Below are positions 31,818 through 46,080 of a stretch of DNA of 48,302 bases, one piece after another (within the stretch, counting starts at the first letter, position 1; the number at the start of each line of letters is the position of its first letter). Source of the stretch: a candidate division WOR-3 bacterium (GTDB lineage Bacteria > Hydrothermota > Tepidihabitantia > SM23-42 > JAOAFX01); assembly GCA_039802005.1 (NCBI GenBank), contig JBDRVV010000021.1:1-48302 (forward strand), in the 5' to 3' direction. The translations under genes were made by a program, and so were the position numbers. Under the pieces are notes generated by a model. It had not been told where the DNA came from. It did no database searches and saw only the letters and a program-made list of their open reading frames with translations.

Positions 31818-34800
31818 ATGGCTGACAATTTAAGGAATACTATAATTGATAGGCTTAAACCTCTTTTTATTCAGTATGATTCAAATTTTCAAGATTTTTT
31901 ATCCACCGGTCAAAGGATTGATACTGGACTTCAAACTAACTCAGAAATTTTGAGTGAAATCCGTCACCGTTTCAATAATTTATCTGCAACCGTAGAACTC
32001 GTTCTTGAAGGTGTAGTTGTATTTGATGCTGAAATAAAAAAGACGCACGAATTTTTGAAAAAAAGCATTGAGAATTTTAAAGAATCTGTGTTAATATCAG
32101 AGAAAATAAGTTCAGACCTTAATAATATTGCTGAGGTTTTAAAGAAAATCCAACTCGGTGTTAGGAATCTTGCAGAGACTATTTACAACATCAATTTTGT
32201 TTCCGAATCAATAGAGGTTGCATCAAGAAATGCGGGGATAACCGCTTTTCATGCCGGGAGAGAGGGCAGGGGTTTTGAGGTAATTGCGCGAGAAATGACA
32301 GATTTAGTTCGAAATGCCCAGGGACCGACTAAAATCATTCCTGTAATATCTAACGAATTATTAAAAAATATCGACGAATTAAATCAGGATTTAAAAAAGA
32401 TTAGGGATGTAATTGCATATTTAAGAGAGATTGCTGATAAGTTTTTGAATATCAATAACGAATTACTTGCCTTAATTCCGTATCTTGAAAATTCTATTCG
32501 GGATATATCTAACAGTGTATCTACACAGAAGGATCTGTATATTAATTTACAAAAAGAAAGTGATAAATTGCCTGAATATCTTAGTGATATTTATCGTATC
32601 ATCAGAACAACTGCAATAACTGAAATGTTTTTGGGCGCATTTTTTCAACACCTTAATAATATAAAGAACAACTTGATTATTGCCGACGACGAGCAGAATT
32701 TCTATTATCTATTCAACACCATAAAACAAGTTTTGGAAAATGAACCAAGATTGGAGGGAGAACACGAGCACTTTTTCAATTTAGAATTAAGGAAGCTTGA
32801 AATGCATACTTCAGAAAGATTGATAATACAGTTTGTTTCGGAGGCAAAACACCTCAACGAAGTAATAGGAGTAATATCTGATCGGATAAAATCTTGGACA
32901 AAAACCCACAATTTTGCAAATGAAACATTGAGCCGTGCTAAAGTATTTTATCAAGATATTGGTGAATTACTGCATTCTTTAAATGAAAAATCTAATAAGT
33001 TAAAAAATCTTATAACTAAAATAGAAAGGCCGGTTCAGGAATTAAAAAGGATTACTGAACGCTCTCGTCTTTTGGGTTTATATGCGGGTATTGAAAGTGC
33101 ACGTAGTGGGAAATTTGCAGAGGAACTCGGGGTTGTTACTAATGAAATCAAGACGCTTTCAACGAGGTCTTCTGAATTTGTTGGGAGCATTGATTCTGTT
33201 GTTGGCGAGATACTGAAAGACATTAATCATCTAATTTCTTATTTTGTCAGGACAACTGAAGATGTTGAATTTGGCTTGGAATCTCTGACCATCTCAATGG
33301 AAGCAGTGGGAGAAAGCAGTAAAGTTCTTGATAATATTTCAGCACTTTCTCAAGAAATGTTTTCGTCCACAGCGGAAATGGTAAATCAGTGTAGAATGCT
33401 TGGAGAACATTACCGAAATTTTGATACTGAGTATCACAAAATAAATGAATATTTTTCTTCATATGGAACAACAATAAAATCAGGAGAAGAATTAACAAAG
33501 AAGATGAAGGCAATTATAAATGAGTTTAAAAAAGATATCTTTTTACTTACGACCAAAAGGAAAAAGATCGTATTGCGTGCGACTGAAGACCCAATAACGC
33601 TTGACCCTGCTATAAAAACAGATACTACAAGCCATCAGGTAATTGAGCAAATATTTACCGGTCTTTACACTTTTGATCAGTTTAACCACCTTATTCCCGG
33701 TGTTGCATTTGCATTTACTGTTTCTGAAGATGGAAGGATTTGGGACTTTCGTCTTAAGAAAGGGGTAAAATTTCATAACGGAATTGAAGTGCAGGCAAAG
33801 GATATTTTGTTTTCATTAAATAAAGTAAAAAAAGGTCCTAATGCAAATTTTATTGAGTATCTCACTGAGATCGCTGTTATTGACCCTTATCATATCAGAT
33901 TTATATTGAAATTTCCCTATGTTCCATTTCTCGCAAATCTTGCCTGCGGTGTATGTGATATAGTTCCTTCTGATTTTAATCCGGACAGACCGGTTGGCTG
34001 TGGTCCATATAAACTTGTTTCTTATGAGAAGAACAACGAAATTGTTCTTGAGGCATTTGATGAATTCTATGACGGTAAACCACCGATTGACGAATGTGTT
34101 ATTAAAATAGTTCATGACGACACAGAAGCAATAGAATTATTTAAAAGAGGTGAAATTTCCATTCTTAATTTAACCTCAAATATGCTACAAGAATTTTCGC
34201 AGGAAGATGTATATACAGGACCTGGCTTATCTACTCAGTATCTTGCCATAAACTTTTCTAAAAAAAGTCCGTTTTTAGATTTGAATGTGCGCAGAGCAAT
34301 GAATTATGCCTTTGATCGAGACTATTATTGTCGCACATTATTAAAAGGGAAGGCAATACCCGCACATGGAGTATATCCACCTGGATTACCAGGATATAAT
34401 AGTAATCTTCAAATATACCAGTATGATATTAAAAAAGCGCGGGATTTAATGCGGCAGGCAGGATTCGGAGGTGGAATACCTGAGGAATTTGTCCTTGATG
34501 TCCGCGCGGGCGTTGATAATGTGAAAAGGGCAGAATTCATAAAAGATTCATTTGCCAAGATTGGTATCCATCTCCAAATAAATCCCCTGCCCTGGGATGA
34601 GTTTTTGAATAAAACATATAGTGGAAATAGTTTGCTTAGTTTGAGGGGGTGGGTATCAGACAATGGTGATCCAGATAATTTTGTCTATACACTATTCCAT
34701 TCAAAGAATTTTGGCGCGAGTGGTAACACATCTTTTTATGCTAATGAAGAACTCGATAAATTGATTGAGTCAGCCCGGGCTGAACAGATCCCCAGAAGAA

Positions 34801-34961
34801 GAATTGAACTATATCAAAAGATAGAGAATTTTATTGTAGAAAATGCGCTCTGGGTTTTCGTTTCTCACGGAGTCGATTGCTACGCAGTCCAAAAAAATAT
34901 AAAGGGTTTTACAGTTGACCCATTTGGTTTGGTCCGTTTTCGTAACCTTTTTTGCTTATAA
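31818..34961 (+). CDS. soluble chemoreceptor-like protein fused to SBP_bac_5 domain
   Basis: 1047 residues with no signal peptide or transmembrane helix, so apparently cytoplasmic. Residues 1-580 are helical coiled coil holding two segments like the MCP signalling hairpin. The first is about 133-166, with SRNAGITAFHAGREGRGFEV then IAREMTDLVR. The second is about 413-455, with ERSRLLGLYAGIESARSG then VTNEIKTLSTRS. Residues 583-1047 are a complete family-5 solute-binding domain (DppA/OppA type): EDPITLDPAIKTDT, LKKGVKFHNGIEVQAKDILF, VRRAMNYAFDRDYY and GDPDNFVYTLFHSKNFG. The order is receptor first, binding domain last. Intracellular SBP_bac_5 sensing is known in the regulator SgrR. CheW follows 2 bases later. 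A peptide or similar small-molecule ligand is inferred. Confidence 0.88.
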   Translation: MADNLRNTIIDRLKPLFIQYDSNFQDFLSTGQRIDTGLQTNSEILSEIRHRFNNLSATVELVLEGVVVFDAEIKKTHEFLKKSIENFKESVLISEKISSDLNNIAEVLKKIQLGVRNLAETIYNINFVSESIEVASRNAGITAFHAGREGRGFEVIAREMTDLVRNAQGPTKIIPVISNELLKNIDELNQDLKKIRDVIAYLREIADKFLNINNELLALIPYLENSIRDISNSVSTQKDLYINLQKESDKLPEYLSDIYRIIRTTAITEMFLGAFFQHLNNIKNNLIIADDEQNFYYLFNTIKQVLENEPRLEGEHEHFFNLELRKLEMHTSERLIIQFVSEAKHLNEVIGVISDRIKSWTKTHNFANETLSRAKVFYQDIGELLHSLNEKSNKLKNLITKIERPVQELKRITERSRLLGLYAGIESARSGKFAEELGVVTNEIKTLSTRSSEFVGSIDSVVGEILKDINHLISYFVRTTEDVEFGLESLTISMEAVGESSKVLDNISALSQEMFSSTAEMVNQCRMLGEHYRNFDTEYHKINEYFSSYGTTIKSGEELTKKMKAIINEFKKDIFLLTTKRKKIVLRATEDPITLDPAIKTDTTSHQVIEQIFTGLYTFDQFNHLIPGVAFAFTVSEDGRIWDFRLKKGVKFHNGIEVQAKDILFSLNKVKKGPNANFIEYLTEIAVIDPYHIRFILKFPYVPFLANLACGVCDIVPSDFNPDRPVGCGPYKLVSYEKNNEIVLEAFDEFYDGKPPIDECVIKIVHDDTEAIELFKRGEISILNLTSNMLQEFSQEDVYTGPGLSTQYLAINFSKKSPFLDLNVRRAMNYAFDRDYYCRTLLKGKAIPAHGVYPPGLPGYNSNLQIYQYDIKKARDLMRQAGFGGGIPEEFVLDVRAGVDNVKRAEFIKDSFAKIGIHLQINPLPWDEFLNKTYSGNSLLSLRGWVSDNGDPDNFVYTLFHSKNFGASGNTSFYANEELDKLIESARAEQIPRRRIELYQKIENFIVENALWVFVSHGVDCYAVQKNIKGFTVDPFGLVRFRNLFCL

Positions 34962-34963
34962 TT

Positions 34964-35383
34964 ATGGATACATTAATCATTTTTAAGGTTGCCGATGAAT
35001 CAATCGGCTTGGATATAAAGAAGGTGCGGGAGGTTACAGAATTATCTTCTTATGTCCCCGTACCAAAAGCACCGGATTTTTTAACTGGACTGGCAAATAT
35101 AAGGGGTGAGGTTGTGCCGGTCATTTCCTTACGCAAACGTCTTGGTATCGCTGGTGATGAACTGTGCAATATATTATTGGTTGTTGAAGAAGAAGACAGA
35201 ATTGCTGGTTTGCGAATAGATCGTTTGCTTGGAACAAAAAAGATTGATGAAAAATTGATAAATAGAAATTCCGAATTGCTCTCTACGAAAAAAGATAAGG
35301 ATTTCTTCCTTGGTGCTTATGAGACTGAAGAAAAGCCAATTTTAATATTAAACTTACCCCGAATTTTTGCAAAAGAGACATAA
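34964..35383 (+). CDS. cheW: CheW adaptor
   Basis: 139 residues, one CheW (SH3-like) domain: LIIFKVADESIGLDIKKVRE, VPVPKAPDFLTGLANIRGEV then VPVISLRKRLG, and a C-terminal LNLPRIF. It couples receptor tips to CheA. The ATG at 34964 follows the receptor stop by 2 bases; the frame extends 4 codons upstream into the receptor gene, which I reject. Confidence 0.93.
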   Translation: MDTLIIFKVADESIGLDIKKVREVTELSSYVPVPKAPDFLTGLANIRGEVVPVISLRKRLGIAGDELCNILLVVEEEDRIAGLRIDRLLGTKKIDEKLINRNSELLSTKKDKDFFLGAYETEEKPILILNLPRIFAKET

Positions 35384-35428: not shown

Positions 35429-35494
35429 ATGGTTTTCAGAAGAAGAGTAAAGGGTTCATTATTCAGGGGTTTGAGGAAAAAGGAGGTTAAATGA
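35429..35494 (+). CDS. leaderless 21-codon micro-ORF coupled to cheY
   Basis: The ORF begins MVFRRRVKG and ends LRKKEVK: 21 residues, ten of them Arg or Lys and one acidic. Its ATG is at the predicted transcription start and its TGA overlaps the cheY ATG (ATGA), while the cheY Shine-Dalgarno AAAGGAGG lies inside it. It may be a leader peptide that couples or tunes cheY translation, or a small basic protein. Chance cannot be excluded for so short a frame. Confidence 0.45.
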   Translation: MVFRRRVKGSLFRGLRKKEVK

Positions 35495-35850
35495 GAATAC
35501 TGGTGGTGGACGACGCTATGTTTATGCGTCGGATGCTAACCGATATTTTAGAAAAAGGTGGGCATACTGTTTGTGGTGAGGCATCAACTGGTAAAGAAGC
35601 GGTGGAGCGATATAAAGAGTTAAAGCCGGATCTTGTTACTATGGACATTATTATGCCGGATATGAGCGGGATTGAAGCGGTTAAAGAAATAAAAAAGATT
35701 GATCCGAAGGCGAAAATTTTAATGGTATCAGCAATGGGACAGCAGGCACTTGTGCTTGAAGCCGTTCAAGCAGGTGCAATAGACTATGTGGTAAAACCCT
35801 TTCAACCTTCAAGGGTTCTTGAGTCTATTGAACGGATTATGAAGAAATAA
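35491..35850 (+). CDS. cheY: CheY-like response regulator
   Basis: 119 residues, a single receiver domain. The acidic pocket is Asp7-Asp8, the phospho-acceptor Asp52 is in VTMDIIMPD, with Ser80 in LMVSAMGQ and Lys102 in VVKPF. There is no output domain, so it acts as a diffusible signal from CheA. A good Shine-Dalgarno (AAAGGAGG) lies within the preceding micro-ORF. With no flagellar motor genes nearby, its target is unknown; it may act on the TPR/roadblock proteins of the cluster (inference). Confidence 0.95.
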   Translation: MRILVVDDAMFMRRMLTDILEKGGHTVCGEASTGKEAVERYKELKPDLVTMDIIMPDMSGIEAVKEIKKIDPKAKILMVSAMGQQALVLEAVQAGAIDYVVKPFQPSRVLESIERIMKK

Positions 35851-35867
35851 ATTAATAATATATAAAA

Positions 35868-37376
35868 ATGTTGGAAGAATATCTATCCCTTTTTATCAGC
35901 GAGACTGAATCGTATATAAAGCAACTTGAAAAGGATCTTTTGATCCTTGAGAAGGATGGGAAAAACCGAGATTCAATACTTGAGGTTTTTAGAATTTTAC
36001 ACACAATTAAAGGAATGGCACAGACAATGGGTTTTGAAGAACTCGGTAATCTGGCTCATTCAGTTGAAGACCTACTCACCGAACCTAAAACAAAAGGGGA
36101 GATAGATAGGAAGACGGTCGAGTTTCTCTTTATCATAGTTGATTACTTCTCACAGTTTTTAAAATCAATAAAAAATAATGCCGTTGTGCCACCAGCGAGT
36201 GAATTGTTGACAATTTGTGAAGAAATTAAACAGGGAAAGGAAGTTACATTAAAAAAAGCGGTTGTTGAAGATGCTGAACTTGGTGAGATTAGAGTGAAAA
36301 TGTCAAAGATTGACAATTTATTTAATCTTACGAATGAATTACTCATAATAAAATCTCGTCTTGTTAAACTAAGTTCGGAGTCAAAAGATAGTGAACTTCA
36401 AAATCTTAGCGAGAATGCGGCAAGGTTAATATCTGCATTGCAGGATGAAATGATGCGATTGCGAATGCTTCCATTATCAACAGTATTTGAATTTTTCCCG
36501 CGCTGGCTAAGGGATGAGGCAAAAAAACAGAATAAAGAGATTGAATTTTTAATAATTGGCAGTGAAATTGAGGTTGACCGCTCAATCATAGATGTTCTTA
36601 AGGAACCAATTATGCATCTTTTAAGAAATGCTATTGACCATGGGATAGAAAAGAAAGGCAGAATAATTTTGAATGCAACGAGAGAAAAAGAATTTATTAG
36701 AATCAGTGTTTCCGATGATGGAAGGGGAATCGATTCAGAACAGATAAGAAGATTGATTGTTGAAAAGAATCTCGTTGATTATGATACTGCCCAAAAGTTA
36801 GGAGTTGAAGAATTGCTTAAATTTTTATTAAGACCTGATTTTTCAACAAAAAAGGATGTATCAAAAGTTTCAGGAAGGGGAATAGGGCTTGATATAGTCA
36901 ATTCATTTGTTAAGGAATTGGGCGGTAGACTTGAGATAAAATCAGAAAAAGGGAAGGGCTCAACATTTATCATTGAACTTCCTATCAGCCTTGCGGTGAT
37001 TCGTGCCTTTGTTTTGGGGATGGATGGCCAACGTTATGCACTTCCGCTTAATTTTGTGCAGGAGACTTTCTATATTGATGATAGTAGTATACAGACTGTA
37101 TGTAAGCATGAACTTTTTAAACTCAGAAATAGTATATTACCTCTTGTCAGAATATCTGAAATGTTGAATTGTGTAACGAAATCGGGAAAAAAATCAGTAA
37201 TTGTCGTTGATTATGAAGGAAAAAAAAGAGGATTTATTGTTGATGAAATATTGAGTGAGGATGAAATTGTTGTTAAAAAAGCAGACAAATTTTTGCCTTC
37301 TTCACTATATTCGGGTTGTTCAATTTATGGAGATGGCAAACCTATATTGATACTTGATCCGAGGGGGTTTGAATGA
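35868..37376 (+). CDS. cheA: chemotaxis histidine kinase CheA
   Basis: 502 residues, compact. The P1 Hpt domain carries the phospho-histidine His45 in ILHTIKGMAQTMGFEEL. A short linker (about 105-138) replaces P2, so CheY/CheB docking is not by a standard P2 domain. P3 dimerisation lies about 140-200 and the P4 ATPase about 205-372: N box LRNAIDHGIE, G1 DDGRGID and G2 SGRGIGLDIV. The P5 CheW-like domain (375-502) ends DPRGFE. All catalytic boxes are present. Its stop overlaps the cheC ATG (ATGA). There is no clear Shine-Dalgarno, and it starts 17 bases after cheY. Confidence 0.95.
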   Translation: MLEEYLSLFISETESYIKQLEKDLLILEKDGKNRDSILEVFRILHTIKGMAQTMGFEELGNLAHSVEDLLTEPKTKGEIDRKTVEFLFIIVDYFSQFLKSIKNNAVVPPASELLTICEEIKQGKEVTLKKAVVEDAELGEIRVKMSKIDNLFNLTNELLIIKSRLVKLSSESKDSELQNLSENAARLISALQDEMMRLRMLPLSTVFEFFPRWLRDEAKKQNKEIEFLIIGSEIEVDRSIIDVLKEPIMHLLRNAIDHGIEKKGRIILNATREKEFIRISVSDDGRGIDSEQIRRLIVEKNLVDYDTAQKLGVEELLKFLLRPDFSTKKDVSKVSGRGIGLDIVNSFVKELGGRLEIKSEKGKGSTFIIELPISLAVIRAFVLGMDGQRYALPLNFVQETFYIDDSSIQTVCKHELFKLRNSILPLVRISEMLNCVTKSGKKSVIVVDYEGKKRGFIVDEILSEDEIVVKKADKFLPSSLYSGCSIYGDGKPILILDPRGFE

Positions 37377-37985: not shown

Positions 37986-40382
37986 ATGATTTCACCAGAA
38001 GAATATAAAGTATTGAAAAGTTTTGCTGAAAGAATCCCGGATAATGACCCGGGTGCACACAACAATCTTGCAGTTGTTTATTATAATAAAGGACTTTATG
38101 AAGAAGCAATTCAGGAATTAGAAAAGGCATTAAGCATTGATCCAAACTTCACGCTTGCAAGGAATAATTTAGAGATTATTTTGAAGAAATCTGGAAAACT
38201 TGATAGCAAGGTAAAGGAACTTGCACATCATATTGATGTGGAGCCATTTGATGAAATAAAAACTCTTGAACTCGCTGATACATACAGGAAATTGAATCGA
38301 TATTCTCAGGCTATAATCTACTACCGCAAGGTTCTTGATTTTAATCCAGGTTCTTACGAAGCACATTTTGGTCTTGGTATTACGCTCAGAAATCTCGGTA
38401 AATATGACGATGCCCTTGAGGAGATAAAAAAGAGCCTTGAAATAAAAATTTCTCCTGAAGGTTATCGCCTGCTTGGTGAAATATATTTCAATAAAGGGAT
38501 TATAGATCTTGCGATTAAAAATTTTCAGGAAGCAATAATGCTTGATCCGGCTTCTGCCGAAGCCCATTTCTTTTTAGGTTTTGCCTTGGGTGAGAAGGGA
38601 ATGCACAAGGAAGGCAGGGAAGAAATTAAAAAGGCAATTCAATTAAATCCTGCACTTGCTCAATTTGAGCCCAATCTACCAATTGAATTAAAAGAACACA
38701 AAGGTTATCTTGATTTTCTAAAAGAGCAACTGGGGGTCCCCAAGAGTTCAGTTAATGAGTTTCAGGCTCATTACAATCTGGGTATGACATACCGGAATAA
38801 GGGGTTGTTTACTGAGGCAAAAAGAGAATTTGAAGAGGCGTTGAAATTTAAAGAAGATGACTCAGAATTACTCGCCTCGCTGGGAGAGGTGAATCTTTTT
38901 TTAAATAAACTGGATGATGCTTATAATTATTTTTCTCGCTGTCTCGAACTTGATTCACTGTCGGTGAGGGGTCTGAATGGCTTGGGATCTGTTTACTTAA
39001 AGAAAAATAACTATGAGCAGGCTAAAGCCTGTTTTGAGAAAGTAATTGCGGTTGATAAAAATTATATTCAAGGACTTGCAAACCTCGGGCTCGCCAATTA
39101 TTTATTAAATCAAATTGAAGAAGCGGTGAAAATTTTTAATGCAGCTATAGAGCAAGGTAGTGAAGATGCAAAATACAATCTGGGTATGTATCTTTATAAA
39201 AAGGGAGACTATGAGCAGGTATTAAAACTCTTCAAAGATGAATCTATTGACAGCAATTTTTTCCGTGGCGTGGTTTATGCTGAGTTAGGAAGGGATGATG
39301 AGGCAGTGACTTCATTTAAAAATATTATCAATGTTTTGCCGAGTTATGCGGGTGCATATTATAACCTGGGTTTTTTACTAATGAAAATGGGACAATTTGA
39401 AGATGGCCTATCAAATATCCGAAGAGGCATGGAGATTGAACCAAACTATGAAAAAGAAAAATATCGTATTGCAATTGCACCAGAATTATATGAATATGGT
39501 TTATACTACATACCATCCAGAATAGAAGAGAAATTTGAAGAGAAAATTGCTGAAGAAGTTGAAGAATTTTTCCCAACCCTTGAAGTTCCCACACCTCAGG
39601 ATTATATACAGGAAGCAGAAAATTTGTTGAGAAAAAATGAATTTGATAAGGCTTTGAATATGGTTGATGAAGCACTTAAACTCGTTCCTGAAATGAACGA
39701 AGCAGTTATACTCAAATCCAAAATTTTATTTCAAGCGGGTAATATAGATGATGCAATTAATCAACTGGAAAGTTTTACCAAAAAACATCCTGATGACATT
39801 GATTCTATTTTGACACTTGCGAATATGTTAAAGACACTTGGTAGATTAAAGCAGGCGAAAGAAAAATATCGCAGTCTTTTGATGATACAAAATGACAATC
39901 CGGACTGGCTAAGAGAACTGGCTTCATTAAGTTTTACCTTGAATGAGCTGGATGATGCTTTGATTATTTACAACCAATTGTACGAAAAAAATCCAATGGA
40001 TACTTCAGTTAATTTAGGACTATTGAATATACACCTGAAGAAAAAGGATTTTGAAAAGGCGGAAAAATATATTGATATGCTGGAAAAAGATAAACCTGAA
40101 ATTTATGATTTTTACGCTTCGGCAGGGTTGTATTATCTTGAGAAGAATGACCGCACTAAGGCAAAGAACTATTTTCAGCGGGCAGTAGAACTTGAACCCT
40201 CAAAACCAGTTCCCTATTATAATCTCGGTATTATCGCAGTTCAAGAAGGTAAGTTTGATGAAGCATGCGGCTACTGGAAAAAGGCAATGCTTTTAAGCCC
40301 GGATGAAGAACTGGCAAGTAAAATTACCCATTGTTTGAATATAACTATGGAGATGATGGAATTCTTAAAAGGTGGTTTATAG
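37986..40382 (+). CDS. large TPR-repeat protein of chemosensory cluster
   Basis: 798 residues, almost entirely tetratricopeptide repeats (for example NNLAVVYYNKGLYEEAIQEL, AHYNLGMTYRNKGLFTEAKR, PYYNLGIIAVQEGKFDEACG). There are about eight or more repeats before and six or more after an acidic break at about 512-545 (EEKFEEKIAEEVEEF). No signal peptide or membrane segment. TPR arrays are protein-binding scaffolds. Its place directly after cheC and before the TPR-roadblock gene suggests it organises or receives output from the Che proteins (inference). Translationally close: 1-base gap. Confidence 0.85.
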   Translation: MISPEEYKVLKSFAERIPDNDPGAHNNLAVVYYNKGLYEEAIQELEKALSIDPNFTLARNNLEIILKKSGKLDSKVKELAHHIDVEPFDEIKTLELADTYRKLNRYSQAIIYYRKVLDFNPGSYEAHFGLGITLRNLGKYDDALEEIKKSLEIKISPEGYRLLGEIYFNKGIIDLAIKNFQEAIMLDPASAEAHFFLGFALGEKGMHKEGREEIKKAIQLNPALAQFEPNLPIELKEHKGYLDFLKEQLGVPKSSVNEFQAHYNLGMTYRNKGLFTEAKREFEEALKFKEDDSELLASLGEVNLFLNKLDDAYNYFSRCLELDSLSVRGLNGLGSVYLKKNNYEQAKACFEKVIAVDKNYIQGLANLGLANYLLNQIEEAVKIFNAAIEQGSEDAKYNLGMYLYKKGDYEQVLKLFKDESIDSNFFRGVVYAELGRDDEAVTSFKNIINVLPSYAGAYYNLGFLLMKMGQFEDGLSNIRRGMEIEPNYEKEKYRIAIAPELYEYGLYYIPSRIEEKFEEKIAEEVEEFFPTLEVPTPQDYIQEAENLLRKNEFDKALNMVDEALKLVPEMNEAVILKSKILFQAGNIDDAINQLESFTKKHPDDIDSILTLANMLKTLGRLKQAKEKYRSLLMIQNDNPDWLRELASLSFTLNELDDALIIYNQLYEKNPMDTSVNLGLLNIHLKKKDFEKAEKYIDMLEKDKPEIYDFYASAGLYYLEKNDRTKAKNYFQRAVELEPSKPVPYYNLGIIAVQEGKFDEACGYWKKAMLLSPDEELASKITHCLNITMEMMEFLKGGL

Positions 40383-40403: not shown

Positions 40404-41474
40404 ATGGCAGATGAACTTGCAATGGATTCTAAGGCACTTATATTTGCTACGCTGGCAGACGTTTATTTAACTTCGGGAATGATTGATGAGGCAATATCAA
40501 TTTTAAAAGATGGGTTGAGTAGAAATCCCAATTATACACTCGGAAAAATAATTTTGGGAAGGGCATATTATCTTAAAGGTGATACAGAACAGGCACTGAA
40601 AATTCTTGAAGAAATATATGAACAGGCGAAAGAGAGTGAAAACGAAAATCTTTATTTAGGCCATATCTATAAAAAACTCGGTGATTATGAAAAGGCAATC
40701 AAATTTTATGAAGTAACATTAAAGATAAATCCTGAAAATAAAGAAGCAAAGCAAGAACTTGATTTGTTAAAGCCGAAGCCAGAGATGGTAGAGGTTACAA
40801 AAGAGCCGGTGATTGAAAAGCCATTTGAAACTATTACGCCTGAAATGGTTGCAGTCCCGAAAGAAGAAATTTCAAAACCAGAACTGCCGATAGAAGAAGT
40901 TATTGAAAAGATAGAGCCTGAAAAAGAAAAGATAACTGAACTAAAACCCGAAATCAAACCTGAAGACATTTCAAAGGCTGAACAGATTGAGGTTGTTCCT
41001 GTTCAGGAACCCGTTGTTGAGGAAACCTTGAAAAAAGAAGAGGCAGAGATTACTCCTGTTTTGCCAGAAATAGGGCTTGAACCCGTGGTTGTAGAGAAAG
41101 AAATTGAAAAAGCCAGTCCGCTTGATGCCTTGAATGAACCTATGAAAAAATTAATTGATATAAAGTCTGTAAAGGGTGCATTTATATTATCAAGGGATGG
41201 ACTACTCATTCAGAGTTATTATCCAGATAGGGATGATATAGAAGAAATCTGTGCGCTTGTTGCTGGCGTTTTCAATGATGCTGATAATGCCTTTACATTT
41301 TTAAAAGCAGGTAGTTTAGAAAAATTTATAATTGAAAAAAGTGATGAGACAATCTGTGTTATTACTGCAGGTGAATCGTTGTTATGTATAATAACAAAAC
41401 CTGAAGCAAAACCGGGTCTTGTCTTTGTTTATGCTCGCAAAATTATTGAAGAAATTAGAAAAATACTGGGGTAA
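40404..41474 (+). CDS. TPR - acidic linker - roadblock/LC7 protein
   Basis: 356 residues. Residues 1-125 hold three or four TPRs (ALIFATLADVYLTSGMIDEA, NLYLGHIYKKLGDYEKAIKF). Residues 125-240 are a Glu/Pro/Lys-rich disordered linker. Residues about 245-356 form a roadblock/LC7 domain (SVKGAFILSRDGLLIQSYYP ... EEICALVAGVFNDADNAF). Roadblock domains such as MglB regulate small Ras-like GTPases such as MglA in polarity and gliding. No GTPase lies in the window. A Shine-Dalgarno-like AAGGAGG lies 11 bases before the ATG. The next gene is a second roadblock protein, a possible dimer partner. Confidence 0.85.
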   Translation: MADELAMDSKALIFATLADVYLTSGMIDEAISILKDGLSRNPNYTLGKIILGRAYYLKGDTEQALKILEEIYEQAKESENENLYLGHIYKKLGDYEKAIKFYEVTLKINPENKEAKQELDLLKPKPEMVEVTKEPVIEKPFETITPEMVAVPKEEISKPELPIEEVIEKIEPEKEKITELKPEIKPEDISKAEQIEVVPVQEPVVEETLKKEEAEITPVLPEIGLEPVVVEKEIEKASPLDALNEPMKKLIDIKSVKGAFILSRDGLLIQSYYPDRDDIEEICALVAGVFNDADNAFTFLKAGSLEKFIIEKSDETICVITAGESLLCIITKPEAKPGLVFVYARKIIEEIRKILG

Positions 41475-41477
41475 GTT

Positions 41478-41777
41478 ATGGATTTATCACAAATTATAAA
41501 AATTCCGAAAGTTTTAGGTGTTGGACTTGCAACCTATGATGGTTTCATAGTAGATAGTCAGTTTGTTCATGGTTATGATTCCGAAAAATTCGGAGCAATG
41601 TCCGCAAAGATTGTTAATCAGATCAAGAAAAATTTTGTGCAGGAAGATGCCTCAATAATTCTTTATACCGATGCAATAATTTTCCTCGCAAAAGCCAAGA
41701 GTGAGGGTATACTTTTCGTCATTGCAGACAAAGATGCAAATTTAGGTCTGATTAAAATAAAATTCGAAAAGATGTAG
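41478..41777 (+). CDS. small roadblock/LC7-like protein
   Basis: 99 residues, one domain of the roadblock/profilin-like fold: IIKIPKVLGVGLATYDGFIV ... AKIVNQIKKNFVQEDASIIL then LFVIADKDANLGLIK. It starts 3 bases after the TPR-roadblock gene and is probably its partner. It closes the chemosensory operon and is followed by a hairpin at 41779. Confidence 0.75.
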   Translation: MDLSQIIKIPKVLGVGLATYDGFIVDSQFVHGYDSEKFGAMSAKIVNQIKKNFVQEDASIILYTDAIIFLAKAKSEGILFVIADKDANLGLIKIKFEKM

Positions 41778-41822: not shown

Positions 41823-42521
41823 ATGAAAAGACTTGCCTTGATTTTAATATTATCTTTGAGTTGCACCCAGAATACAAAAAAGGAATCACCCTGGTATGAA
41901 ATTGCACGCCGGCAGATGGTGGATGAACAGATTATCGCCCGTGGAATTAAAGACTCAAATGTGATAAATGCGATGCTAAAAGTTGGGAGACACAAATTTG
42001 TACCAGAGGAGTACGAAAAATATGCTTATACCGATGGGCCGTTGCCGATTGGTGAAGGACAGACAATTTCTCAACCATATATCGTTGCACTTATGACTGA
42101 AGTTTTGCAATTAAAAGGCAGGGAAAGGGTTTTGGAAATTGGAACAGGTTCTGGTTATCAGGCAGCGATTCTTTCTTTGATTGTAAAAGAAGTATATACT
42201 ATAGAAATAATTCCTTCCCTTGCCGAATCTGCCAAGAAACGGCTTGAAAGTTTTGGTTATAAAAATGTCTATGTAAAATGTGGAGACGGATTTATGGGGT
42301 GGCCCGAAAAGGCACCTTTTGATTGTATAATCATTACCTGCGCTGCACCAAGAGTTCCAGAACCATTGATTGAACAACTCACCGAAAATGGTAGACTTGT
42401 GATGCCCGAAGGCGATGAATTTCAGATGCTTGTTTTATACAAAAAAATAAATGGTAAATTAGAAAAAAAGGAACTCATACCCGTCCGCTTCGTTCCAATG
42501 AAAGGGAAGATAAGGGAATAG
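41823..42521 (+). CDS. pcm: protein-L-isoaspartate O-methyltransferase, predicted lipoprotein
   Basis: 232 residues. The PIMT core is complete: MVDEQIIARGIKD, VPEEYEKYAYTDGPLPIGEG, QTISQPYIVALMTE, SAM-binding VLEIGTGSGYQAA (about 102-114), and VKCGDGFMGWPEKAPFDCII. It methylates isoaspartyl residues as the first step of repair. Unusually, the N-terminus MKRLALILILSLSC is a lipoprotein-type signal with a lipobox cysteine at 14, so the enzyme may be exported, where SAM is not normally available. An alternative is a cytoplasmic start further in, at the Met of RRQMVDEQ, but that would cut the usual N-terminus short. No Shine-Dalgarno is obvious. Confidence 0.88.
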   Translation: MKRLALILILSLSCTQNTKKESPWYEIARRQMVDEQIIARGIKDSNVINAMLKVGRHKFVPEEYEKYAYTDGPLPIGEGQTISQPYIVALMTEVLQLKGRERVLEIGTGSGYQAAILSLIVKEVYTIEIIPSLAESAKKRLESFGYKNVYVKCGDGFMGWPEKAPFDCIIITCAAPRVPEPLIEQLTENGRLVMPEGDEFQMLVLYKKINGKLEKKELIPVRFVPMKGKIRE

Positions 42522-42567: not shown

Positions 42568-42732
42568 TTAAACAGGTTGGGGATGTAAATTGTTTTCGTA
42601 ATTAAATGCTATTGAAGTTTTAACAGATATTTTGTGAGCTTTTATATAGGTTTTATTCCTACATATAGAGGTTCTCAGAACATCTGGAAAATGATTTGCC
42701 AAAAAATTTTGGTGATTATTAAGGAGGTTATG

Positions 42733-45700
42733 ATGAAGAAACTTTTGTTGTTAATTTTGATTATCACACCTTTTATCCTTTGGGCACAAGTAGATGTTGA
42801 TTCCATATACCTATGGGATAACGACCGTGGAAAATCAATGCAATATTTTCCTGTGGTTGGTGCACGAAATTGGGGGGCATTCATCGGCTGGCAGGATTCA
42901 AGATGGAATGACTATGATATCTATAGGCAGCAAGTGCGCTGGAGTGGTAGTATGATTGGGGGTAACACAATGGTAAGCATTGATTCTTTCTGTCAGTATC
43001 AACAAATTTATCCGGATCTGGAAGGTAATCCCAGCAATCAATGCGTCTTCGTTTGGGAGGATTCAATGTATCAACCCGGTAATCAAAGGCCAACTGAAAT
43101 AAAGGCAAGGATTTATAATAATATACCATTTACAGTTTATTCTGGTTCTCGGTCTCAAAAGCGACCTTCAGTTTCTTGCAAAAATGATGGACAATTTGTT
43201 ATTTCATTTACAAACTACGATCCTGGTAATTATCCACGGATAGATTGGCGCCTTTATGATGCTAATGGCAGTCTATTAAATAGTGGTATTGCGAAATTGA
43301 TTGATTCTTTGAGGCATCATATTCCAATTTCCCGTGTGGCTTTTTGTGATTCGGGATTTGTTGTCGTTTATGATGATTCCAGCGGTGATGGTAGTCAGCG
43401 TTCAGTATATTTGCAATATCGCAATAGAAACGGTGATCTTATAGCAGAAAGAATAAGGGTAAGCAATACTGGTGGTAATGAAGATTATCCTGCAGTCTCC
43501 GTTAACCAGTATGGATTTGGTGCGATTGTCTGGCAATACTGGTATGGTGCCGCTGATATTGATATTTATTGCAGAACCTTCCAGATGAGGCCCGGTACTA
43601 ATAATATTACCCTTAGCCCAGAGATTGCTATTACAACAACCACTAATAATTCACGCTTTCCACGTGTTACGGTTTTTCCTAATAATGATTATTTTATTGT
43701 ATGGGATGAATTTCGTAGCGTTGGAACCGGTTTCGACATCATGGGACGTGCCTGGATTGGTTCAAGTTTAAAGCCGGAGTTCACTATAAATCAAGACACC
43801 CTTAATCAGGGTTATCCTGATGTGGAATGCAAAAATACAGATAGTTGTATTGTAGCCTGGGTGAGCCAGGAACGTCTGACAATTATGGGTAAAAATTATT
43901 TTGATATTTTTTGTCGTGCGTATTTCAAAACTAATGATAATATGATACCTCTTGGTGACACAATTCGTATAACTCCATATGATACCATAGGAGGAAGAAA
44001 AGGCTGGTATTTTGATGACGAAAATTATGATAATCCTTTGACTTCTGACTGGAACGAAGATCCGATTGATGAACCTGATTCAATATTTCTTGACCTTGAT
44101 TCAGCGATCGTTGACCAGATAATGGAATTAAATACGAATGGACAATATCGCATATTTAATGAAGATACTTTGGCAGGGCGTCAAAAGTCAAGGGATTTAC
44201 TCAATTATGATGCAGTCTTTGTAAACCTTGGCTATAGAACAGATGAAGCATCCGCCGGTGTGATAAACACCACCGAACAGGCAACGCTTGTTGATTATAT
44301 AAATAGTAGACAGCCAACAATGATTGAAGGCAGTGATTTTGGCGAGATGTATAATGGAACTGCGTTATTCAATAAGTATGGCGCAAATTATCTCGGACCA
44401 GGTGCATCATACATACAGGGTAACATAGATACACTTTATGGTGTTACGGGAACTTCATTCGCAGATGAAACTTTAAAATTCAATTACAAAACTCTGGTAG
44501 ATAACTATCCGGATTCAATCAGTGCCAAATCAGGGTATGAATTAATTCTTAGGGGGAGTGGTGCAACGGATAGATGGGCAACCGGTAGGGCGGTTGGCTC
44601 CGGGACATACTGGAAAGAACATAGCGAACCAATTCAGGATAGTTTCAAAGTTTATGCCACTTTCCCATTGAGTGGAATAAGAGGTACAGTTCATCCTCAT
44701 ACTTATGCTGAATTTTATCGCAGATTACTCGGTTATTTAGGATTACACTGCCAGCCCGAACCAATAACTACATTGACCGCCACCACCGGGTCTTCAGAAG
44801 GAAGGGTAACGATGACCTGGAGAGTCGTCTCAGATGATAAACCAAATGAATCCGCCGAAGGAAATTATAAACTCAAATTTTCACGCACTAAAATAACTTC
44901 CGAAACCGCGTTCAACGATTCCACAGAAACATATTATCAGACATGGAATACCGCATCACAGCCTGTTAAGACTTTAATCACCCAGAACCTGATAGGATTA
45001 CCACCAATGGATACACTTGTCTTTGCGTTAAAAGTCAGTGATGAAGAATCATTGTGGAGTGCATTGGGGGCAGAACCAAGGGCAGTTGTTGCGGGAGATT
45101 CGGTTACCCCGCATACGATTATCTTTGGAACGAATTATGTTAAGGATTTTTCAAATAAATACGAATTCATTGATAGACGCAGAAAAAATGATACCGGAAC
45201 GGATTTTGACTCCCTTTTTGTTACCTGGAATTATCCGAATTCACCGGCTTTGTTTGAGTTTGGTTTTGCAAGGTGCAATTTTAATACCGAAGGAGATTTG
45301 TTTATTTATGTTGATACAAAGTCAGGTGGCGCGGATAGCACCGTACCCTATAATGGAACTACAGGCAGGTCTGGTTTCTTTAAAACCGCGGTGGATAGCT
45401 TCAGACCAGATTATTGCTTAATTATAGAAAATGCAAATATTAGACGATACAGAAAATGGGTTGCAACGAAGGATGGGCGAGGCTCTTGGGTTTCTGTTGA
45501 TTCCGGTGGCACCGTTGTCGTGGAAGATAATGTAGTAAATAATTTTATGTATACGGAGGGTTATATACGTTATGATACGATGTCGTATACCGCAGGTAAT
45601 TCCTTTAAGCTCGTTGTTTTGATGACTGAAGAAACCACAAATAATATTATAAACGCATTTCCTATTTCTAATCCTCTTGGCACATACAAAAATATTGTTC

Positions 45701-46080
45701 AATATTATTCCTGGGGTTCTGATGGTTTAACTTCAGGAAAAGTTCCAGCCCGTAGACAACTGATTGGAATTGAAGAGGAAATGAATCCAAAATCTAAAAT
45801 TTTAAATTCACGATTATTGGCATTTCCAAATCCATTCTACAAAAAGACTAAAATATTTCTGCCCGCAAAATATGTTGCAACGCAGGATATTTCTTTAAAA
45901 ATTTATGATGTAAGTGGTCGGCTTGTGAAAGAATTTAGCAATTTAATCATTAAGGAATCTGATTATGTAGTCTGGGATGGCTTGGATAATAATAATGATT
46001 TGCTACCGCCGGGAATTTATTTCTGTAGGTTTGCAATACGAGATAAGGATGAAATAATTAAGATTATCTATCTGAAATAG
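42733..46080 (+). CDS. large secreted protein with C-terminal FlgD/type-A sorting-like domain
   Basis: 1115 residues. Signal peptide KKLLLLILIITPFILWAQ. The N-terminal 400 residues have repeated blades with W, D and YP motifs (GAFIGWQDSRWNDYDIYRQQ; YPDLEGNPSNQCVFVWED; GFGAIVWQYWYGAADIDIYC), suggesting a beta-propeller. A middle domain (YDAVFVNLGYRTDEA ... LVDYINSRQPTMIEGSDFGE) resembles the domain in the secreted protein at 16462-17598. Fibronectin-like segments follow, and the last 85 residues (FPNPF, LKIYDVSGRLVKEF, WDGLDNNNDLLPPGIYFCRF) form a type-A sorting/FlgD-like domain. The frame opens at 42634, but AAGGAGG just before 42730-42733 fixes the start. Surface or secreted, function unknown. 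Confidence 0.85.
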   Translation: MKKLLLLILIITPFILWAQVDVDSIYLWDNDRGKSMQYFPVVGARNWGAFIGWQDSRWNDYDIYRQQVRWSGSMIGGNTMVSIDSFCQYQQIYPDLEGNPSNQCVFVWEDSMYQPGNQRPTEIKARIYNNIPFTVYSGSRSQKRPSVSCKNDGQFVISFTNYDPGNYPRIDWRLYDANGSLLNSGIAKLIDSLRHHIPISRVAFCDSGFVVVYDDSSGDGSQRSVYLQYRNRNGDLIAERIRVSNTGGNEDYPAVSVNQYGFGAIVWQYWYGAADIDIYCRTFQMRPGTNNITLSPEIAITTTTNNSRFPRVTVFPNNDYFIVWDEFRSVGTGFDIMGRAWIGSSLKPEFTINQDTLNQGYPDVECKNTDSCIVAWVSQERLTIMGKNYFDIFCRAYFKTNDNMIPLGDTIRITPYDTIGGRKGWYFDDENYDNPLTSDWNEDPIDEPDSIFLDLDSAIVDQIMELNTNGQYRIFNEDTLAGRQKSRDLLNYDAVFVNLGYRTDEASAGVINTTEQATLVDYINSRQPTMIEGSDFGEMYNGTALFNKYGANYLGPGASYIQGNIDTLYGVTGTSFADETLKFNYKTLVDNYPDSISAKSGYELILRGSGATDRWATGRAVGSGTYWKEHSEPIQDSFKVYATFPLSGIRGTVHPHTYAEFYRRLLGYLGLHCQPEPITTLTATTGSSEGRVTMTWRVVSDDKPNESAEGNYKLKFSRTKITSETAFNDSTETYYQTWNTASQPVKTLITQNLIGLPPMDTLVFALKVSDEESLWSALGAEPRAVVAGDSVTPHTIIFGTNYVKDFSNKYEFIDRRRKNDTGTDFDSLFVTWNYPNSPALFEFGFARCNFNTEGDLFIYVDTKSGGADSTVPYNGTTGRSGFFKTAVDSFRPDYCLIIENANIRRYRKWVATKDGRGSWVSVDSGGTVVVEDNVVNNFMYTEGYIRYDTMSYTAGNSFKLVVLMTEETTNNIINAFPISNPLGTYKNIVQYYSWGSDGLTSGKVPARRQLIGIEEEMNPKSKILNSRLLAFPNPFYKKTKIFLPAKYVATQDISLKIYDVSGRLVKEFSNLIIKESDYVVWDGLDNNNDLLPPGIYFCRFAIRDKDEIIKIIYLK

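Follow-up and report, generated by a model that had tools for sequence, protein, structure and literature searches.

A candidate soluble chemoreceptor of candidate division WOR-3 bacteria with two unequal signalling hairpins and a DppA-like binding domain in one chain

In Escherichia coli the transmembrane methyl-accepting chemotaxis protein (MCP) Tap works with a separate periplasmic binding protein, DppA. The gene described here lies at positions 31818-34961 of a 48,302-nucleotide stretch of DNA (contig JBDRVV010000021.1, assembly GCA_039802005.1; hereafter the window) from a candidate division WOR-3 bacterium, and encodes a single chain, referred to below as the fusion, in which two MCP signalling hairpins are followed by a solute-binding protein (SBP) domain of the SBP_bac_5 family. 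Soluble single-chain MCPs have already been noted in a few bacteria, and a Tsr engineered as a single chain is able to signal in E. coli (PMC4692393). The fusion shares with the natural soluble single-chain MCPs an apparently cytoplasmic location and a pair of MCP signalling units per chain; compared by description only, it differs from them in its additional C-terminal SBP_bac_5 domain and its unequal tips. The engineered Tsr~Tsr (PMC4692393) likewise joins two receptor subunits covalently, but is artificial and membrane-bound, with identical halves and two periplasmic sensor domains, whereas the fusion is natural and apparently soluble, with unequal halves and one C-terminal sensor.

In systems combining a transmembrane MCP with a periplasmic SBP (Tap/DppA; PMC9602780), the SBP gives the MCP its ligand recognition and is of the DppA type, as in the fusion; in those systems, however, the proteins are separate and the SBP is periplasmic, whereas in the fusion the link is covalent and no export signal was seen. 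The transcription factor SgrR also carries a cytoplasmic SBP_bac_5 sensor, and the fusion gives a weak match to its profile (NF010149), but the output of SgrR is DNA binding rather than the CheA control predicted here, and the fusion is far less similar to SgrR than to DppA. The soluble and transmembrane MCPs of Thermotoga maritima (3g67, 2ch7) have long MCP hairpins and are structural matches to the fusion; unlike it, they have one hairpin per chain, form symmetric homodimers and lack an SBP domain. A literature search of incomplete coverage found no description of an MCP-SBP_bac_5 fusion or of a split tip, and nothing specific on chemotaxis in WOR-3. An earlier note on this DNA had proposed an undescribed system, which holds within that search for the fusion and does not hold for soluble single-chain MCPs as such, as these were known before (PMC4692393).

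The gene is a single uninterrupted open frame of 1047 amino acids, and its parts are as follows.

31818..34961, + strand: fused receptor gene with tandem MCP hairpins and SBP_bac_5 domain (1047 amino acids), from the open reading frame, Pfam and homologues in 46 WOR-3 genomes
31830..32681, + strand: hairpin 1 (residues 5-288; arms of about 143 and 140 residues), from AlphaFold/DSSP and an MCPsignal stretch
32214..32315, + strand: tip 1 (residues 133-166), RNAxI..FHAGxxGRGFEVIA, which keeps N138, G150 and G152 and has T142 at the Glu position, from the tally of 37 sequences
32691..33524, + strand: hairpin 2 (residues 292-569; arms of about 140 and 137 residues; loop 308-329), from AlphaFold/DSSP and MCPsignal 380-523
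33054..33182, + strand: tip 2 (residues 413-455), LGLYAGIESARSG, which keeps E426 and R429, has Y422 in place of Asn and has lost the GRGF turn, from the same tally
33564..34958, + strand: DppA-like SBP_bac_5 domain (residues 583-1047), from Pfam, a hidden Markov model alignment to PDB entries and Foldseek matches to 1dpe, 1dpp and 5u4o

The MCPsignal family (PF00015) was matched with E=7.8e-26 and 91.4 bits (curated cut-off 34.6) in two separate stretches, the best at residues 380-523 and the other at window positions 32118-32531 (about residues 101-238), so that the MCP similarity on which the earlier note had made its reading depend is clear in both coiled coils. The complete SBP_bac_5 domain that it had placed at residues 583-1047 was recovered by Pfam (PF00496, E=1e-81, residues 625-965) and by the DppA profile (residues 582 to 1044). 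Its further claim that the chain lacks a transmembrane helix and a signal peptide was borne out by hydropathy (Kyte-Doolittle, 19-residue windows): no window of the fusion exceeded 1.6 (maximum 1.53), as against 2.91 in a membrane MCP of the same genome, none of 37 homologues had a window above 1.6, and neither a signal peptide nor a lipobox was found by hydropathy or by inspection of the N-terminus. With two MCP hairpins per chain and no transmembrane segment, the fusion has the domain composition of a soluble single-chain MCP. The free SBPs of the genome begin with a hydrophobic leader that stops close to a Cys, e.g. MKKLWLILIVIGLIVYC, and the leader of the one on contig C2 is lipoprotein-like. 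Because the fusion lacks such hydrophobic windows, unlike the membrane MCP and the free SBPs, it is very probably soluble and cytoplasmic, and the reading as a membrane or exported protein was rejected from the hydropathy of all 37 sequences.

The tips of the two hairpins, with centres at residues 148 and 432 within the segments first picked out in the earlier note, were compared with the canonical N..IE..R.GE.GKGF by gap-free alignment of the 37 sequences. The positions concerned correspond to Tsr N381, E385, R388, G393 and G395. Within the receptor part (576 residues) the sole invariant positions were N138, G150, G152 and E426, all of them in an MCP tip, and I141, L163, R429 and L447 were near-invariant. 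Tip 1 kept the Asn and both turn Gly residues in 37/37, with Lys (26), Thr (7) or Arg (4) at the Glu position and His (26), Gln (8), Arg (2) or Lys (1) at the Arg position. Tip 2 had Tyr or Phe at the Asn position and Glu at its own position in every sequence, and Arg or Lys in 36/37; its turn Gly residues are not conserved. A complete tip (N..E..R...GxGK/RGF) was present in neither hairpin of any of the 37 sequences, and the set is complete only across both tips, while four canonical MCPs of the same lineage carry all the tip residues together. The two subunits of an MCP dimer take different places, one at the axis of the trimer and the other turned towards CheA/CheW (PMC4692393), and a division of labour between the hairpins would be expected to show itself as just such a split. 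By this comparison, hairpin 2, which keeps Glu and Arg, would serve at the trimer axis, and hairpin 1, which keeps the GxGKGF turn, would serve outward, towards CheA/CheW.

The fusion is probably a soluble chemoreceptor whose four-helix bundle is built from a single chain, both halves together forming a pseudo-dimer, with one peptide-binding Venus-flytrap domain at the bundle end remote from the tips. In the cytoplasm the DppA-like domain would bind a short peptide or some other molecule bearing a free amino group, and domain closure would be transmitted through a linker of about 13 residues into helix 4 of the bundle. The unequal hairpin tips, probably in trimers with other such molecules, would then control CheA bound through the neighbouring CheW.

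The predicted SBP domain has the full-length SBP_bac_5 fold and matched 1dpe, 1dpp and 5u4o in Foldseek (TMt 0.89 for 5u4o). Its closest solved proteins are that of Bacillus anthracis (5u4o) and E. coli DppA. The earlier note had called it an oligopeptide-binding protein, which is correct as to a complete peptide-binding-type SBP and not as to the oligopeptide (OppA) type, since the closest matches are DppA-type. In the motif DNGDPDN, residue D948 (codon 34659-34661) aligns with D436 of E. coli DppA, and the position is Asp in 35/37 sequences; DppA R383 and D436 are both mutated in PDB 8z1z. The predicted ligands of SBP_bac_5 members are nearly all di-, tri- and oligopeptides (PMC9602780). Our best guess from these residues is that the ligand carries a free amino group and is probably a short peptide. 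Two observations speak against it: R383, on the carboxylate side in DppA, has no clearly conserved counterpart (the R896 position is Arg in 11/37), so that a ligand other than a dipeptide is possible, and the most divergent members alter the DNGDPDN motif. The same two observations are compatible with an SBP domain that binds no ligand and serves as a scaffold or docking site, for example for the tetratricopeptide-repeat (TPR) proteins of the operon, while the receptor responds to another stimulus; a cytosolic protein that matches an SBP profile can indeed serve another purpose (PMC9602780). We regard this as rather unlikely, as the SBP domain is the better conserved half and holds most of the invariant columns, the D948 region included, and the retained Asp argues against lost ligand binding. 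The genes scanned between 25434 and 42521 include none for ATP-binding cassette permease or ATPase partners. Elsewhere in the genome, a lipoprotein-like SBP_bac_5 protein is fused to TonB_C (L010:1285-3369 on contig C2 of the window genome, G000; PF03544, E=4e-21), and many relatives have SBP frames of about 690 amino acids, a size like that of this protein.

AlphaFold modelling of the full chain with 24 homologues gave a mean predicted local distance difference test score (pLDDT) of 86.5 and a predicted template modelling score (pTM) of 0.65, with helices at residues 5-145, 147-248/251-288, 292-307/330-428 and 431-569 and a mixed alpha/beta domain from residue 583; residues 1-576 modelled with 37 homologues gave a pLDDT of 87.8 and a pTM of 0.64. 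Measured from tips placed at 148 and 432, the four arms are 143, 140, 140 and 137 residues long. The receptor model aligned with 2ch7, the MCP hairpin of T. maritima, over about 302 columns (TMt 0.72-0.73, root-mean-square deviation 5.2-5.6 Å), a match that requires an antiparallel hairpin, and with 3g67 at a TMt of 0.61. Matches of the receptor model to umbrella toxins, pore toxins and SMC proteins were set aside as generic coiled-coil similarity. The helix lengths and the 2ch7 match in these predicted models are compatible with a four-helix bundle formed from one chain. The intramolecular dimer-like unit proposed in the earlier note, which may pack in this way, is supported by the predicted fold and by the complementary tip split. 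Counting against it are the pTM values of only 0.64-0.65, with strand-swapped dimers fitting the models equally well, the lack of a DSSP break at tip 1 in the model of residues 1-576, and the weak Foldseek E-values of the receptor half. The fusion might instead be a soluble MCP that pairs between molecules, as domain-swapped or parallel dimers, with the tandem tips bridging two bundles or array layers. Engineered single-chain Tsr has been seen to swap subunits, and a possible function of such swapping in natural single-chain receptors was suggested (PMC4692393); the predicted fold does not distinguish pairing between molecules from single-chain packing. We consider it unlikely, as the near-equal arms and the short break between the hairpins allow simple intramolecular packing and the way in which the two tips lose complementary residues suits a fixed hetero-pair in one chain, although a swapped dimer would pair tip 1 with tip 2 too.

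The gene heads a conserved core chemosensory operon, the other members of which are as follows.

34964..35383, + strand: CheW (profile E=3.6e-28), with its ATG 2 nt past the stop codon of the fusion and its adjacency conserved
35491..35850, + strand: CheY, from profile and synteny, 69-99% identical across the phylum
35868..37376, + strand: CheA (Hpt, H-kinase_dim, HATPase_c and CheW domains; Pfam), the only CheA detected in the window genome
37373..37984, + strand: CheC-type phosphatase of phosphorylated CheY (PF04509, NF041093 CheC_Thtogales)
37986..40382, + strand: TPR protein kept in the operon, from Pfam and synteny
40404..41474, + strand: TPR and Roadblock/LC7 protein kept in the operon (PF03259, synteny)
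41478..41777, + strand: small protein of conserved position, with no Pfam match and roadblock-like by inspection only

CheW lies directly 3' of the fusion in 36 of the 46 genomes that have it, followed by CheY, CheA and CheC as far as the contigs reach. With the same proviso, the order is kept in 17/17 relatives, and it is kept in 19/29 more distant fusion genomes; of the others, G052 has CheW alone adjoining and nine lack any che gene next to the fusion. Where CheA does not adjoin the fusion, in ten genomes, CheW-domain proteins are encoded elsewhere, and no CheW-domain protein was found in the four fusion-free genomes tested (G005, G010, G028, G032). CheA was detected in 15/17 fusion-bearing relatives as against 2/24 fusion-free ones (Fisher p=2.5e-7, uncorrected for relatedness); the two exceptions among the fusion genomes are G026, whose contig ends within CheY, and G027, which has a divergent CheA seen by BLAST. 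The fusion is therefore associated genetically with CheA and CheW, both by adjacency and by co-occurrence, as an MCP would be. On the strength of its domains and operon it would belong to the MCP family, with predicted kinase control, although neither hairpin carries a complete tip. The 69-99% identity of CheY contrasts with the wide divergence of CheA, CheW and the receptor and suggests a strictly conserved output target.

An orphan group with the same MCP-MCP-SBP architecture (L007:3762-6974 on contig C16 of G000; relatives L064-L074) occurs within the same bacterial order and stands outside che operons, next to a coiled-coil gene of about 720 amino acids and a YitT-family membrane gene, and its tips are more degenerate. 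That paralogue may be a structural coiled-coil protein. The same reading for the operon-encoded fusion, as a structural or cytoskeletal coiled-coil protein that does not control CheA and has residual MCP similarity, draws on the orphan's location, its long coiled-coil neighbour and its degenerate tips, and is very unlikely, as the operon-encoded group adjoins CheW in 36 genomes and the sole invariant positions of its receptor part are tip residues.

The fusion, of about 1040-1130 amino acids, occurs in 46 of the 147 WOR-3 genomes searched (47 matched at E<=1e-60, of which G051, with a 602-residue frame covering the SBP part only, was excluded), and in 17 of the 41 genomes made up of the window genome and 40 relatives; the architecture, which the earlier note had wished to see sought in related genomes, is thus conserved across the phylum. 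MCPsignal and SBP_bac_5 were both present in 24/24 close homologues of alignment A2, each scanned singly against Pfam, and in five distant members. The nearest named relative is encoded in a WOR-3 metagenome-assembled genome (75% identity over the best segment), and identity drops to 21-30% among distant members of the phylum. A peptide-pattern scan with the fusion found one true relative and an SBP-only match in Clavichlamydia, and is a poor test of occurrence beyond WOR-3. All fusion sequences come from uncultured metagenome-assembled genomes, which tells against the interpretation given here, but an artefact of assembly or gene calling that fused two genes, including the frameshift considered in the earlier note, is of negligible probability, because intact frames of the same length occur in dozens of independent assemblies.

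Downstream of the receptor, CheA would phosphorylate CheY and CheC would dephosphorylate it. Other MCPs of the window genome are encoded on contigs C23 and C4, and a CheB-CheD-CheR cluster lies on C15 (L085, G000:C15:36000-50000), apart from the CheA operon; these three may provide adaptation. Genes for TPR, DUF4388 and DnaA-like ATPase proteins belong to the C15 cluster as well. FliG was not found in the window genome by a search that, as a control, detects it in flagellated genomes, and gave one marginal match among 41 relatives; flagellar chemotaxis in the window genome was ruled out on this ground. The genome encodes two PilB-sized and several PilT-sized T2SSE ATPases and an MglA-like GTPase (L131:1468-2553 on contig C6 of G000; named from its sequence and a weak Arf-family match) beside a roadblock-like protein of 165 amino acids. 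Judged by this gene content, with FliG absent and these genes present, the likely output is control of the type IV pilus/MglA machinery rather than of a flagellar switch.

Beyond the operon, a protein-L-isoaspartate methyltransferase with a lipoprotein-like leader (MKRLALILILSLSC) is encoded at window positions 41823-42521, and its gene adjoins the operon in several relatives. Two large open reading frames, at 42634-46080 (1148 amino acids) and 602-2098 (498 amino acids), had no Pfam match at E<=1e-5.

In a homodimeric MCP every tip residue occupies two environments, the trimer axis and the CheA/CheW-facing periphery, and ordinary mutations cannot separate the two roles; an artificial single-chain Tsr was built by Mowery et al. 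as a tool for separating them (PMC4692393). WOR-3 bacteria appear to have evolved single-chain receptors, with the tip residues pre-sorted between the halves in 37/37 sequences. We propose, tentatively, that the fusion is a lineage-wide asymmetric receptor, driven by its SBP domain, in which trimer contact and kinase coupling are split by tip, and that it is the principal input of the non-flagellar chemosensory system of the phylum. It offers a natural way to test how receptor halves divide their work, and one covalent, apparently cytoplasmic SBP sensor per chain would make the coupling of ligand to bundle directly testable.
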